Assembly (NCBI GenBank): GCA_013297755.1
Contig: JAAFIH010000016.1
Coordinates: 1 to 64,000 of the forward strand
Reading direction: 5' to 3'
Length of the DNA stretch: 64,000 nt
Origin: Cytophagales bacterium
GTDB taxonomy: Bacteria; Bacteroidota; Bacteroidia; Cytophagales; UBA9547
The notes beneath the pieces are model-generated. The model was not told where the DNA came from, made no database searches, and worked only from the letters and a program-made list of their open reading frames with translations. A program made the translations under genes and the position numbers. Positions 1 to 10,812 of this stretch are shown piece by piece; position 1 is the first letter of the stretch; the number at the start of each line of letters is the position of its first letter.

Positions 1-3000
1 TGTTGGGCTTGCCTGCCATAATCCGCCATTGATGCCGTATTCATAAATGCCACTGCCACCACTCCCTGATAGCACTACTACGCCATTCGTAAGACCACAA
101 TTCGTTATGTCACTCTTGCTTTGTAACGATACGGTGGGGGGGGAGGTAACTGTAACGATATGATTTCTAGTGTTTGGTCCACCGCCACAAGCAGAACCAG
201 GCACTGTAGCTTGGATGATTGCAATACCTACAAAACTAGCATTCCAAGTAACTAATCCTGTAGAACTATTTATAATACCAGCTGTTGGAGTTAATAGCCT
301 GTAACCAGGAACAGTCCCTGCAATAGTAGCAGTGTATAAAGTTGTGCCAGCAGATTGACATCGTGAACTACCAGCACCAAGTGAGAAAACTGGAGATGTT
401 GCGGTAGAATTACCAAAAACATTTATGTAGTTATATTTATAAAAAGTAAATTGGTTAGCTGTATTTTCATTTATTATCAATACAATTGTTTTTAATCCTG
501 TTGTTCCAAATCGAACGGTTGGATTACTAGTATTGGCACCAGTAACGGTTGCACTAGGGTCATTGAAATTCCATTCCCAAGTTGTACCCTGACCAGAATT
601 TTCAGTAAAATTAACCACATTACCAGTACAAGGTGTTAAATCATCGGCAGTAATTCCACAATTAGCACTAGCAATCGCTAAAGGACTCGTCCAGGTACTA
701 TAAGTTGGCCCAGCCCCAATAGCACGAACTCTAATTGAACCACCACTAAATCCATTCAGATAATTTACTGTTAAAACATTTAGATTTGTAACACCAGATG
801 TTTGCATATTGGCACCTGAGATGCTCCATTCATACTGGCAAACAGATTGATCGAAAGGTATACTATAAGTAATGTTGTTTTCTCCACCATTGCAAATTGA
901 AACACGACCTTGAGGTTTAGCAGGTTGAGAAGGTGGATTTGGAGCTAATTGAGTAAATCTAAGTTGATAGATATCACAATTCTCTCCTGTATACTTAAGT
1001 TGGATGGTATGAGTTCCCCAATTAAAAGGCTTAGATGTTACTCCACCGATAGTTAGAGTAAACCATTGAAGACTAGAAGTTGCTGGTAATGAATAAGAAC
1101 CAACAAATGTTCCATCAATATAAACATCACCAGATGAAGGAAGATAACAATCTCTTTGTATTTCGATTCTGTAATTTGCGTTGGTATTTGAACTCAATAA
1201 CCATACATCATCATCTCCGCTGTGGTTATACATATTTGCTGGAAACATAGGCCCAGTTATATTCCCATAACCACAAGGATACATATCTCCACAATCAGCC
1301 CAACCATAAACTTTTCTTGCATCTACTAATCCAGGTATAGTAAATCCTGCTGTTAGCATAGGATTTGGAGAAGTCATAATTTGATTAGCAGCTTGCCTTG
1401 TAGGACTATTATCTCCTATATTCTCTGCCCAAGCATATAACCCATTATAATCAGCACTATATCCTCCAGCAAATAAGTTGAACTGACCATCGTCTCCATA
1501 AGCATACCATTTATTCCAATAATCAATACAAATGTTTTTCATTGTAGGACTCCTTTTGGCATTTCTTTTGGAAATAGTCCAATTGGTGGTATAATCTAAA
1601 TCTGGTCCACCTTCATAAGCAATGAATCTAAGCCCATATTCTTTTGCCTTACCTGCAAAACCTTCAATTGTATTTCCATCTGGCCCATTACAGTTATGAC
1701 AATTAAACATTTCGTTTACATTTTGTTGCATCCCATTTAAAATGGCTGTGGTATTGTTTACATTAGCACCTTTAGAATTAAAATAAGGTGCACCTGCAAT
1801 AGCATAAATATAATTTTTAGGTTCCCAACCATTAAATTTAAGCCATTCTAAACCTTCTTGAACATTATAACCATATCCTTTGCCGCCATATGCAATTTGA
1901 CCAGCCAATAATACACGCACTCTATTATTAATTTCATTTGAACCCCAAACAGTACCAAATATATCGCTTATTTCTTTTGTGCGTAATGCTTGCCATCGCA
2001 TAGCTACACTGTAAGCGGTAAAACCGCACTGATCGGGTGTACCATAGGATGTGCAATTATTTCCTAAATTACCATTATCATAGCCTCTAAGTGGGGTACC
2101 ATTTCTAAGTAAATTATTCCAATAACCACTGGAATTGGCTCTATTAGCCGCCATTCTATTGTTATAGCCAAATCCATTGAACCCACCTCCTGTATTCCAT
2201 ATTTCATTTCCATATTCAACCCATACATTTTTATCAGGTCTAAGATTATTTTTTATTAAAGTGGCCAATTGAGTAATAAAATTGTTATCAGCTAATACTG
2301 GTACATTAACCCACAAATCTTTTCCAGTTGTATTACATATTTCAATCATATACTCATAACTCACTCCAAATTTGTTAGATTGCACTGAAGACCTTTTGGT
2401 TCTATCACTCCAAAGTTGTACAAAATTTGTATTAGTGTGTCCCCAATCCATCATTCTATACAAATTAAAATTAGCGTAGGTATTAACTACACTAGGAGAA
2501 AAAGTGGGAAAATTAGAAAAGGTATAATTTGTGGGTGTTCCATTCAAAACTATAGGAATCATTTGCAACTGAGTAACACCAGAATTAAATTCAATCCATT
2601 GATTTCCACTATTATCAACAATAATATCTTTCTCGGAATATCCACCACCAACATTTGTACTACCATTTAGAGCCGAGGTTGGACCAAAATATCTTAGTTT
2701 GTAAGTACCAGTAAAGTCTGCACTTAAATCAGCACCTTCAACTATTACTAAAGTAAAAGCTGTAGTGGGCAAACCCTCAGAATTATAAGGTCCAGCATAA
2801 TCATCCCAATAACCACCACCACCAGAGATTCCTTTGATTAACCTTGATTCTTTTACAAAATCTGTAAATATTCTAACAGAACCATAATTTGAAATCCCAT
2901 CCAAATTAACTCCCATTTTAGGATATATAACAGGGGTTATACACTGTGATTGAAGTTTTAAACAATTAAATGTTAAAACCAAAATTAGTATTAATAAATA

Positions 3001-3009
3001 GTTTTTCAT
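1..3009 (-). CDS. Large secreted glycoside-hydrolase-like protein with CBM-like and PKD/SprB-like repeats (C-terminus outside window)
   Basis: An open frame of 1003 codons runs from the ATG at 3009 to the window edge without a stop, so only the N-terminal part is visible. It begins with a hydrophobic signal peptide (MKNYLLILILVLTFNC, followed within 10 residues by a likely cleavage site). Residues of about 30-560 look like a (beta/alpha)8-type hydrolase of the kind annotated as cellulose-binding proteins. The motif VEYGNEIWN near residue 263 would hold the acid/base glutamate. A CBM6-like beta-sandwich follows at about 580-680, then PKD-like or Ig-like modules at about 690-950, and a SprB-like repeat at the visible end (GSGIYEYGINGG). 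This order is typical of type IX-secreted surface or extracellular enzymes. The substrate cannot be told from the sequence. Confidence 0.8.
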   Translation of the reverse strand, partial: MKNYLLILILVLTFNCLKLQSQCITPVIYPKMGVNLDGISNYGSVRIFTDFVKESRLIKGISGGGGYWDDYAGPYNSEGLPTTAFTLVIVEGADLSADFTGTYKLRYFGPTSALNGSTNVGGGYSEKDIIVDNSGNQWIEFNSGVTQLQMIPIVLNGTPTNYTFSNFPTFSPSVVNTYANFNLYRMMDWGHTNTNFVQLWSDRTKRSSVQSNKFGVSYEYMIEICNTTGKDLWVNVPVLADNNFITQLATLIKNNLRPDKNVWVEYGNEIWNTGGGFNGFGYNNRMAANRANSSGYWNNLLRNGTPLRGYDNGNLGNNCTSYGTPDQCGFTAYSVAMRWQALRTKEISDIFGTVWGSNEINNRVRVLLAGQIAYGGKGYGYNVQEGLEWLKFNGWEPKNYIYAIAGAPYFNSKGANVNNTTAILNGMQQNVNEMFNCHNCNGPDGNTIEGFAGKAKEYGLRFIAYEGGPDLDYTTNWTISKRNAKRSPTMKNICIDYWNKWYAYGDDGQFNLFAGGYSADYNGLYAWAENIGDNSPTRQAANQIMTSPNPMLTAGFTIPGLVDARKVYGWADCGDMYPCGYGNITGPMFPANMYNHSGDDDVWLLSSNTNANYRIEIQRDCYLPSSGDVYIDGTFVGSYSLPATSSLQWFTLTIGGVTSKPFNWGTHTIQLKYTGENCDIYQLRFTQLAPNPPSQPAKPQGRVSICNGGENNITYSIPFDQSVCQYEWSISGANMQTSGVTNLNVLTVNYLNGFSGGSIRVRAIGAGPTYSTWTSPLAIASANCGITADDLTPCTGNVVNFTENSGQGTTWEWNFNDPSATVTGANTSNPTVRFGTTGLKTIVLIINENTANQFTFYKYNYINVFGNSTATSPVFSLGAGSSRCQSAGTTLYTATIAGTVPGYRLLTPTAGIINSSTGLVTWNASFVGIAIIQATVPGSACGGGPNTRNHIVTVTSPPTVSLQSKSDITNCGLTNGVVVLSGSGGSGIYEYGINGGLWQASPT

Positions 3010-3323
3010 GTTGAAAAGATTTGAAAATTTATGTTGTATTAAATTTAAAAATATAGAGTAATAATTTTGAGAAGTGATTTTTAGTAGATTTGTTTCCATG
3101 ACAAAATAATTAAGACAGGTGAAATTTTATAACTATTTCAATATTATATTGCAAATATTCAACATTTATTTTAATAAAACAAATAAATATTTGAAAATCA
3201 GGGAGTTATCATATATTTATTACACTTAAATAACTATTAATAGAGGTCTTAATAAATATTATTTAGCTGATTTTCAGGTTATTAAAAAAAAATAAAAAAT
3301 ATATCTTTTACATATAAATAAAA
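3010..3323. other. Intergenic region, AT-rich
   Basis: These 314 bases lie upstream of the secreted-protein gene and downstream of the 7TM-DISM gene, both on the minus strand. I see no open frame with protein character, no clear hairpin followed by a T-run and no good TAnnTTTG motif. The promoter of the secreted-protein gene should be here but I cannot place it. Confidence 0.5.
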
Positions 3324-5147
3324 TCAATCAAGTACATAGCTACTCCAGCCTTCGAGGTTTCGCTTGGCAACTTTCTTTTTTTGCATTACTTCAGAAATTT
3401 TTTGCTTAAAGCTATGGCATGTGCCAGCACGTAGGTCGAGCATCTTTGAAAGCTCTTCGATAGTTATACCTTTACGTGTGTAAACCAAAAATACAATATA
3501 AAAAGCTTTTACTATTGGGAAACGCAAGTGATGAAAAATAGTATGGGCTGTGGGCGATTCTATATAATTGCATTTGGTACATCGCCTTGACAAATCTTTA
3601 TCAGTTTCTGAATAGGTTTGGTTGTTGCATTTTTTACATTTATAGCCTTGATTCCATTTTAAGTTTATTAAAAAATTATAACAAATATCATCGCTAGGAT
3701 AAGCGGCTTTGAACTCTTCAAAACTAATTGGTTTTACTAAAACTCTGTTTTGAGTAATCTTTGTTACATTATCTTTCAAATCATTGTTTTGCTGCAATAA
3801 AAGTTGATTTATTCTCGCTATTTCTATTGACTGGTTTCTAATAAGAACAGTTCTCTCTTCCACTGTGTTTTCTAAAATCTTATTTTGATTGTCAATCAAT
3901 TGTTGTTTAGATTCTAATTCTGCAATTATCTGCTTCTGTGCAGAAATAGCCATAGATTTAATCACTCTATATCGATTAGACATAGAAATGGCAAAAAATA
4001 AAACTTGAATCACTCCAGTAAAAAAAAGTATATTTTCATTTTCTGAATAAAAACTTATCTCTACATTATAGGTATAGTTTGTAAAAAAACTTATTAAAAA
4101 CCCAATAAGAGCCAATAAATCAACCAAGCACTCATGGAAAAATGCAATGAAAATAAAAAATAATCCTAAAGCAAAAAAAAGGGCTGGTGTAAATTTTTCA
4201 TTTATATGATATTTTATTCCAAACCAAGTGCAATAACCAATCATACCTAAATCGTATATTGGTGAATAAACTAGCTTATTTGCATTAGGAAGTAATAACT
4301 GAATTGAAAGCAACAATAACTTTAGAAAAACAAATACTAATAAAAAAAATTGTTCTTTTTTGTACTTTACTCCAAACTCAAAAAAATGATATGCACACAT
4401 AATCAACGAAATGGTAATAGTTGCATGAAAAAAAGTATATGAAAAATACATATATTTGCTTGAGAATAAATTGAAGGGTAAAATAGACCAAACACCAAGA
4501 GCGAAAAAAATTAATCCAAATAAAAAAAACGAATAATACAAGTTTATTCGTTCTTTGTTAAATAAAAAATGAATGAAATTATATAGCATCATCAAAAAAA
4601 TAAGGCCAAAAAATATACCATAATAGAAAATTTCGCTGGTGGATTTGGCATAAAATCCCCGTATAGTTTGGATACTGATCCCTATAAATTGATCAGAAAC
4701 TGGAACTAATTTTGCAAAATAAATTGAGGTAGAATCTGATTTTGGAAGGTAAAAAACAAATTGTTGTTTTTTAAAAAAATTACTTATATCATTTTTAAAA
4801 TAAAAAGGATTAATTTCTGTAATAGTTTCTTTTTGGATTTCAAATACTCTAAATTCTTGAAAATCTTTTGCTCGATATAGAATTAAACCTTGTTTGCTAG
4901 GGTTTGATATTTTGAAACGTAGCCAATAGTTGGCATTAAAATCTGTTACAAATCCTACTTCTGGTGTGGATTTTATGAAGCCCTTATTAATTTTATTTAT
5001 TTGCTCTATACCAAGTTTTTGGGTAGAATCTTTAAAAATATATTCTTCAAATACATCTATTCGTTTTTTATTATCCAAGATATAAAAATCGGCTTTTAGT
5101 TGAAATGAAAAAGTTAAAAAAATCAAAAAAACAACTCTTTTTGTCAT
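3324..5147 (-). CDS. 7TM-DISM receptor with a C-terminal transposase-type zinc ribbon and helix-turn-helix
   Basis: This 607-residue protein looks like a membrane receptor. Residues 1-19 are a signal peptide. About 20-165 form a periplasmic 7TMR-DISMED2-like domain (YWLRFKISNPS). About 175-395 are seven hydrophobic segments of the 7TM-DISM type, and about 400-465 are a coiled coil. Instead of a kinase, residues 470-600 match the N-terminal zinc ribbon of IS1595/ISXO2-family transposases: the YPSDDICYNFLINLKW block, cysteines 504/507 and 523/526 as two CxxC knuckles, then a helix-turn-helix (ITIEELSKMLDL). The DDE catalytic domain is absent, so it cannot transpose. Inference: a signal-controlled DNA-binding protein anchored in the inner membrane. 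The gene stands alone and no target is visible. The domain calls are firm; the function is a guess. Confidence 0.85.
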   Translation of the reverse strand: MTKRVVFLIFLTFSFQLKADFYILDNKKRIDVFEEYIFKDSTQKLGIEQINKINKGFIKSTPEVGFVTDFNANYWLRFKISNPSKQGLILYRAKDFQEFRVFEIQKETITEINPFYFKNDISNFFKKQQFVFYLPKSDSTSIYFAKLVPVSDQFIGISIQTIRGFYAKSTSEIFYYGIFFGLIFLMMLYNFIHFLFNKERINLYYSFFLFGLIFFALGVWSILPFNLFSSKYMYFSYTFFHATITISLIMCAYHFFEFGVKYKKEQFFLLVFVFLKLLLLSIQLLLPNANKLVYSPIYDLGMIGYCTWFGIKYHINEKFTPALFFALGLFFIFIAFFHECLVDLLALIGFLISFFTNYTYNVEISFYSENENILFFTGVIQVLFFAISMSNRYRVIKSMAISAQKQIIAELESKQQLIDNQNKILENTVEERTVLIRNQSIEIARINQLLLQQNNDLKDNVTKITQNRVLVKPISFEEFKAAYPSDDICYNFLINLKWNQGYKCKKCNNQTYSETDKDLSRRCTKCNYIESPTAHTIFHHLRFPIVKAFYIVFLVYTRKGITIEELSKMLDLRAGTCHSFKQKISEVMQKKKVAKRNLEGWSSYVLD

Positions 5148-10355: not shown

Positions 10356-10507
10356 GTTGGGAGTTAGGAGTTGGGAGTTGGGAGTTAGGAGTTGGGAGTT
10401 AGGAGTTGGGAGTTAGGAGTTGGGAGTTAGGAGTTAGGAGTTGGGAGTTGGGAGTTGGGAGTTGGGAGTTAGGAGTTAGGAGTTGGGAGTTAGGAGTTGG
10501 GAGTTGT
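10354..10507 (+). repeat. Heptamer tandem repeat, 22 copies of GAGTTRG
   Basis: Twenty-one copies of the 7-mer GAGTTGG or GAGTTAG follow one another without interruption, and a 22nd imperfect copy (GAGTTGT) closes the array. The only variation is A or G at the sixth base, with both forms mixed along the array. It starts inside the stop codon of the sugar kinase gene. Since 7 is not a multiple of 3, the frame shifts with copy number. Read on the minus strand it gives LPTPNSQ-type repeats, which I do not take as a gene. It resembles the short tandemly repeated heptamers described in cyanobacteria. Confidence 0.97.
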
Positions 10508-10812
10508 AGGTTATAAATTATTGATTGCGATGAAAGTAATTTTGATAGTTTTGAAATCTGAGTTGCTTTGAATAACAATATATGATATAAATCGTATTCC
10601 AAACATATAAAATACTTATGCTTATTTATAAAATATGTATAAAAAAACTTTTATGTAAAGCCGCCTTTTTGGTTTCAGTAAAATTTATAGGGATGGTATT
10701 TTATTTTGAAAGTTATATTTAAAATGTCGTCATTTTCTACTCTGAATTTGATGGTATCGAAAAAAAATAATCTATAATTGATAACCCAATTTGAACATAT
10801 ATTTAAAAATAC
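10508..10812. other. Intergenic region before plsY
   Basis: In these 305 bases between the heptamer array and plsY I see no protein-like frame, hairpin terminator or clear promoter. Confidence 0.4.

Follow-up and report, generated by a model that had tools for sequence, protein, structure and literature searches.

The window analysed here (the whole stretch of 64,000 nucleotides from a Cytophagales bacterium) contains a gene for a membrane receptor whose C-terminus resembles part of a transposase. The question raised by this locus was whether that part is debris of a mobile element or a working output of the receptor and, in the second case, which genes it would control.

The receptor and its relatives

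The receptor is encoded by a single open frame of 607 aa, running from window position 5147 to position 3324 on the minus strand (the preliminary description of this DNA gave no strand). The succession of parts read there, i.e. receptor, seven helices, coiled coil, IS1595-type zinc ribbon and HTH, was recovered by Pfam, NCBIfam and AlphaFold2 (Table 1), and cysteines C504, C507, C523 and C526 lie where they had been placed. In Pfam, residues 37-138 matched PF07696 (7TMR-DISMED2) with 25.7 bits (cut-off 22) and residues 173-362 matched PF07695 (7TMR-DISM_7TM) with 48.6 bits (cut-off 29). DISMED2 would be the ligand-sensing part. Residues 484-528 matched Zn_ribbon_IS1595 (PF12760) with 22.3 bits (E 1.3e-4), under the cut-off of 25.4, which is exceeded in some relatives (e.g. 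32.1 in L036). The NCBIfam model transpos_IS1595 (NF033547) aligned by its positions 3-55 of 215 with residues 542-592, at E 5e-4 and far under its cut-off.

The AlphaFold2 model had a pLDDT of 80.8 at full length and of 86.8 for residues 400-607. Its periplasmic part is beta-rich, with strands between residues 32 and 161, and helices were modelled at 162-197, 200-219, 230-255, 260-285, 296-317, 320-356 and 370-471. The seventh helix extends past the Pfam 7TM span into the coiled coil, the start of which (codon 396) was placed by eye. The conserved C-terminal module was modelled as a small ribbon of two strands followed by an HTH of three helices, and the topology would place it intracellularly. 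As predicted by Pfam, NCBIfam and AlphaFold2, sensor and putative DNA-binding part would thus be joined in one membrane protein without a kinase.

Table 1. Features of the receptor locus in the 64-kb window
Feature	Position	Strand	Evidence or remark
Next gene, same direction, putative target, at least 1003 aa, secreted-looking	1..3009	minus	Weak PKD_6 match alone
Candidate operator box B2, CTGATTTTCAA	3191..3201	minus	76 bp from B1, spacing as in L033
Box-A-like site, AAGTGTAATA, weak	3218..3227	minus	By eye; two mismatches to AAGYGTATCA
Candidate operator box B1, CTGAAAATCAG	3267..3277	minus	Motif search
Receptor gene, 607 aa (DISMED2, 7TM, coiled coil, zinc ribbon, HTH)	3324..5147	minus	ORF, Pfam, NCBIfam, AlphaFold2
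HTH helices, codons 545-593, end of the transposase-like part, no DDE domain after	3369..3515	minus	NCBIfam, alignment, AlphaFold2
IS1595-type zinc ribbon, codons 484-528, C504 C507 C523 C526	3564..3698	minus	Pfam; cysteines invariant in 47/47
Coiled coil, codons 396-471, continuous with last membrane helix	3735..3962	minus	Model helix 370-471
7TMR-DISM_7TM, codons 173-362 (Pfam span)	4062..4631	minus	Pfam E 1.2e-12
7TMR-DISMED2, periplasmic, codons 37-138	4734..5039	minus	Pfam E 1.2e-5, above cut-off; beta strands in the model

When the model of the C-terminal part was compared using Foldseek, no match was obtained at E<=0.001; weak matches were to ribosomal zinc ribbons (0.35) and to the Lrp/AsnC HTH (0.42). 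A PDB profile search gave no relative (best E 0.24). The module occurs once in the window genome, where no second protein carried it at E<=1. One further receptor-like protein of this genome, 25% identical, aligns over residues 36-473 alone and therefore does not include the zinc ribbon/HTH module.

The C-terminal 145 aa matched a genome of the same genus at 2e-79 and had a match at E<=0.001 in 53 of 148 genomes (its own included). Some of these matches are true transposases or fragments, and a single genome can have as many as 14 matches. Strong matches were mostly found in open frames of ~590-740 aa, the others being ~300-aa transposases or fragments, and eight of the matches listed contained stop codons. 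From 84,980 species genomes searched, the best 80 of 203 loci were named; as the search relied on DNA patterns within the module, intact modules are favoured. Genera represented among these best 80 include Hymenobacter, Flammeovirga, Dyadobacter, Pedobacter, Arcticibacter, Mucilaginibacter and Chitinophaga, besides Prolixibacteraceae and others, and in all 80 the frame ends 104-144 aa past the first zinc cysteine. In an even draw across the phylum, a match at 1e-20 was present in at least 21 of 395 genomes (a lower bound, 10 candidates being scored per genome), 11 of them with a frame of more than 600 aa. Two family receptor genes stand in tandem in a Cytophagaceae MAG (L060, 3683-7511; L191, G119:C389).

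Conservation was analysed in 47 full-length proteins (the window receptor and 46 of the 80 named loci). The four zinc cysteines are invariant in all 47, and in 53/53 in a further comparison; PF12760 was found in 47/47 at E<=0.01. Nearly all other invariant columns fall in the coiled coil (among them N454 and L457) or in the C-terminal module rather than in the sensor, and they reach through the HTH (R573, T576 and C577). The architecture is present in many other Bacteroidota, where the preliminary description had advised looking for it. The case that it had set against its own reading, a C-terminal part variable or degraded in all homologues or lacking the cysteines, was not what was found; some degraded fragments exist.

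Descent of the module and exchange of sensors

Like the module, IS1595 transposases (PF12760, NF033547) have a zinc ribbon and an HTH that align along their length, and those of Bacteroidota score up to 1e-47 with the module profile. The Bacteroidota transposases then continue into VDVDETYVGG, whereas the receptors stop just before it. The absence of a DDE domain was correctly read from the window sequence: the reading frame stops short of the first catalytic Asp found in true IS1595 transposases, which we take to be the Asp in VDVDETY. Unlike these transposases, the receptor family has no DDE nuclease and its module is attached to a receptor. True IS relatives have perfect ends of 16-30 bp, whereas the same kind of search around the window gene gave no clear terminal inverted repeats, just AT-rich imperfect pairs.

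A careful tree was built from 111 rows and 137 columns, with transposase labels assigned by motif and by eye. Near copies (L107, L057, L113, L126 and L127), fragments (L178, L205, L207, L209, L215 and L092) and short receptors (L182 and L183) had been left out beforehand. One branch separates 84 receptor-type modules from 27 transposases (bootstrap 100, SH-aLRT 99, 100% of 200 bootstrap trees), and many inner forks are open. The tree supports a single capture, in Bacteroidota, of the DNA-binding half of an IS1595-family transposase, from which the output module would descend. In one genome (G304), ten matches of IS1595-transposase length (L203, L214, L216-L222) represent a multi-copy, apparently diverged element that is near the receptor module in sequence.

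The sensor was 7TM-DISM in 43 of the 47 proteins scanned, Reg_prop + Y_Y_Y in three (L036, L101 and L107) and PAS in one (L061). In Desertivirga, a fourth Reg_prop protein (L103b) and a 7TM receptor (L103) are encoded ~5 kb apart; on the tree, Reg_prop requires two separate changes. The Flammeovirga-type copies L179 and L180 (238 aa) are a minimal form without a sensor domain, on a long branch in the tree; they consist of one N-terminal hydrophobic helix (a single TM helix as judged by eye), a coiled coil and the zinc ribbon/HTH. Since the sensor varies and the C-terminus is constant, the latter behaves as an output domain. No kinase, receiver or AraC part was found by Pfam in the window protein, among the families listed for the 47 proteins or among those of L036, L101, L107 and L103b.

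Neighbouring genes and a candidate operator

A susC gene lies at most three genes away from 58 of 122 receptor genes, vs none of 207 overlapping control windows drawn from 20 random regions. The cases are distributed as 34/34 in the Hymenobacter group, 15/48 in other named loci and 9/40 in further loci, L113 repeating L088 in this count; 34 of the 58 thus belong to one group, outside which susC is near 24 of 88 receptor genes. It is the next gene on the same strand in 42 cases. Pfam families at these loci are GH16, GH5, GH30, GH3, CBM6, SusC and SusD. In Hymenobacter L042 the gene order is GH16, GH5, receptor, SusC, SusD, PKD protein and GH16; Pedobacter L086 has two genes of the SusC and SusD clusters, then GH3 and GH30, and the Dyadobacter and Arcticibacter loci have GH30 or GH3.

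The remaining 64 receptor genes have no susC nearby, and the neighbours of many are unremarkable. The +-1 neighbours of these loci were scanned after removal of the L088 pair, which duplicates L113, and of 14 near-copy loci, one receptor neighbour and all frames longer than 1600 aa. Among the families listed were GH3 (3), alginate lyase (3), GH9 (2), GH5 (2) and CBM6 (4), as well as GH18, GH43, GH64 and GH97; the families listed are 25 of 109 and 25 of 124, which means that a lone GH in the control may have gone unseen. Two TonB plugs appear in the control set. A T9SS sorting tail was carried by 10 of 86 neighbours vs 3 of 88 control genes, the neighbour proteins being longer in total (40,641 vs 29,245 aa, before the last omissions).

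The spacer between receptor and susC contains a conserved motif, AAGYGTATMA (box A). In 33 Hymenobacter-type spacers, conservation is centred on GTG..GTAAGYGTATA, upstream of TTGC.TTT and TATATTTG, which presumably fit the Bacteroidota -33/-7 promoter. Two AAGCGTATCA-like boxes were found in 15 of 17 Pedobacter-type loci examined, 89-92 bp apart in 13 and 68 bp apart in two; L111 and L112 have no such pair. Second boxes, CTGWWWATCAG (box B), stand at near-fixed distances, the best cases reading A1 +56 B1 +35 A2 +32 B2. In L095, box A is a 30-bp perfect palindrome (TATCCAAGCGTATCATGATACGCTTGGATA), seen by eye ~24-54 bp past the receptor stop. The ends of transposons were considered as a source of the operator and rejected, those of three IS1595 relatives (L177, L173 and L176) sharing just the pentamer AAGTG with box A.

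If one mismatch is tolerated, there are 51 copies of the box in the 61 kb that lie within 500 bp downstream of receptors (0.84 per kb), vs 298 copies in the other 2136 kb of these loci (0.14 per kb). The Reg_prop locus L103b carries it too. A search of seven genomes for the exact pair gave six matches vs 0 in the control. Four are receptor-susC spacers of the discovery set and two are new: L223, before another susC/susD pair, and L224, before a second family receptor. The latter gene (5446-3566, minus strand, Pedobacter sp. KBW06) was found only via the paired motif upstream of it, a position that suggests auto- or cross-regulation. The loose pair gave 26 sites in 151 genomes vs 16 in the control, so most weak sites are due to chance. 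Enrichment was seen for the 18 sites with at least one exact AAGCGTATC, nine of which are directly followed by susC, vs 0 of the eight sites without it. Among these nine, L103 and L106 are discovery loci, and L231 and L233 have no receptor in the flank fetched.

In Hymenobacter (51 genomes, assigned by matching contigs), the strict motif was found at 29 sites in 16 genomes vs four control matches. The next gene is susC or a glycoside hydrolase at 24 of the 29 (GH5 7, GH16 6, susC 5, GH3 3, GH30 3); the others are an MFS transporter (2), a xylose-isomerase-like TIM barrel (1), a PHP-domain protein (1) and a protein without match (1). Judged by family assignment, the susC and GH targets would be the set expected for beta-1,3/1,6-glucan use. 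Several lie far from the receptor gene, with sites 580 kb apart in G688 and on other contigs in G687, G696 and G699. The receptor is present in 42 of the 51 genomes, and the strict motif occurs in 16 of these 42 vs 0 of the nine without receptor (hypergeometric p ~0.02, computed by hand). A looser motif gave 38 sites in 21 genomes vs three in the control. One of them falls within a 538-aa frame of a genome without receptor; as this frame also gives a match in G685, the site is probably due to chance. The sites in L265, L289 and L303 precede a similar SRRxFVKSA... protein, a xylose-isomerase-like TIM barrel by Pfam in L265 and by eye in L289 and L303, which is possibly a further step of the pathway.

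In the window, the receptor is separated by 314 bp from the next gene, the putative target, which is cut at window position 1, where the contig begins (G000:C8:1-64000). No susC stands beside the receptor, and this neighbour has no CAZyme match. A glycoside hydrolase had been considered for it (3009-1) from a NEIWN stretch and was rejected, Pfam, NCBIfam and PDB giving nothing beyond PKD_6. Two box-B-like sites 76 bp apart are found in the spacer of both the window and a sister genome (L033), the latter with a GH97 gene two genes upstream. CTGAWWWTCAR occurs at four places in the window, two of them in the spacer (seven strand-counted matches vs 1.6 expected). Box A is approximate in this spacer, so the target of the window copy is a prediction based on the family. 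An ORF at 10399-10602 (minus strand) made of a repeated phrase (LLTPNSQLPTPNSQ) is a short tandem repeat and probably not a gene.

Proposed role of the receptor family

The central proposal of the preliminary description, a domesticated transposase DNA-binding part serving as receptor output, gains support at the sequence level, including the module swap, genome context and motif; the link to glycan-use loci and the candidate operator go beyond it. We consider it highly probable that the receptor controls the transcription of glycan-use genes as a membrane-tethered one-component regulator, through a DNA-binding output of transposase origin. The relatives are widespread, often stand beside polysaccharide genes and share a motif, which makes it probable that the family is a hitherto unnamed kind of gene switch in sugar use. 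The outer DISMED2 would sense a carbohydrate released in the periplasm, as suggested by the glycan genes and by its description as a predicted ligand (carbohydrate) binder in PMC6107284. The seven helices would relay the signal to the coiled coil, which is continuous with the last membrane helix in the model; such a relay fits the signalling-helix idea as outlined in PMC1592074. The coiled coil would set the arrangement of paired zinc-ribbon/HTH modules, and this coiled coil and the paired boxes point to binding as a dimer. The modules would bind AAGYGTATMA and the related CTGWWWATCAG boxes in promoter regions of neighbouring genes (susC/susD, glycoside hydrolase or secreted-protein genes) and may switch them on, activation being favoured over repression because the Hymenobacter sites lie upstream of the -33/-7-like promoter. 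The DDE nuclease would have been lost, and the module later joined to other sensors.

Other readings of the C-terminal module were weighed. It could be a zinc ribbon for scaffolding or protein-protein contact, with the fold of the transposase retained and DNA binding lost, the receptor then signalling via a partner. Many zinc ribbons serve in protein contacts, and ribosomal ones were weakly matched by Foldseek; moreover, the motif is tied to the receptor by position and co-occurrence, so another regulator could read it. Against this, the zinc ribbon has stayed joined to the HTH, in which R573, T576 and C577 are invariant, the receptor genes directly precede the motif, the strict motif is missing from all nine receptor-less genomes, and the search for the paired motif led to an unseen second receptor gene. 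We therefore regard the scaffolding role as unlikely.

It is very improbable that the receptor still acts on transposition, by binding the ends of IS1595 elements and regulating or inhibiting them. The DNA-binding part is shared with these elements and the AAGTG of three transposon ends, on the reverse strand, is shared with the start of box A, but box A/B is absent from these three clear IS ends beyond the pentamer, the window genome has no other protein carrying the module at E<=1, and receptors adjoin glycan genes rather than IS copies. A chance or recent functionless fusion with transposon debris hardly deserves credence: the module is clearly transposase-derived and degraded fragments exist (the eight listed matches with stops), yet intact frames of ~590-690 aa occur in many genera with the cysteines kept in 47/47, on one old branch and in a conserved operon context, and the window gene has no clear terminal inverted repeats.

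The regulatory reading has precedents. HTCS-type regulators are likewise membrane glycan sensors controlling SusC/D and CAZyme genes. Reg_prop with Y_Y_Y is the typical HTCS sensor, and three to four members of the receptor family carry it; unlike HTCS and sigma regulators, the members scanned have no kinase, receiver, AraC or sigma part, and the output is fused to the sensor. ChiS is a membrane-bound chitin regulator. Its family, in the excerpt of PMC8092284 used here, has a DNA-binding domain behind membrane sensors, with 7TMR-DISM among the listed architectures, so the general idea is not new; that domain is a different one, for which the excerpt names no zinc ribbon and no transposase origin. 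Known 7TMR-DISM receptors (e.g. RgsP) have the same DISMED2 + 7TM sensor with an intracellular output, and the outputs named in PMC6107284 are kinase, GGDEF, EAL and PAS, where the window receptor has the transposase-derived zinc ribbon and HTH. What would be new is an output of new origin on a one-component membrane regulator. Among the open-access papers searched, none was found that connects, in the sense meant here, 7TM-DISM with a transposase, IS1595 with a zinc ribbon or 7TM with the regulation of SusC/SusD.

It seems likely that a transposase DNA-binding half, captured once in Bacteroidota, became a transferable output module on membrane receptors and on a soluble PAS protein, reading a TATCA-type operator for glycan-use regulons such as the unlinked beta-1,3/1,6-glucan regulon in Hymenobacter. 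If so, HTCS, ECF-sigma and SusR would be joined by a separate class of glycan regulators, acting on polysaccharide loci in Bacteroidota of soil and water, for which an operator and a regulon are predicted. Proteins that the zinc-ribbon match alone would label as transposases would gain a putative function, and the family would be a clear example, in bacteria, of how the DNA-binding half of a transposase can come to serve as the output of a cell-surface sensor.
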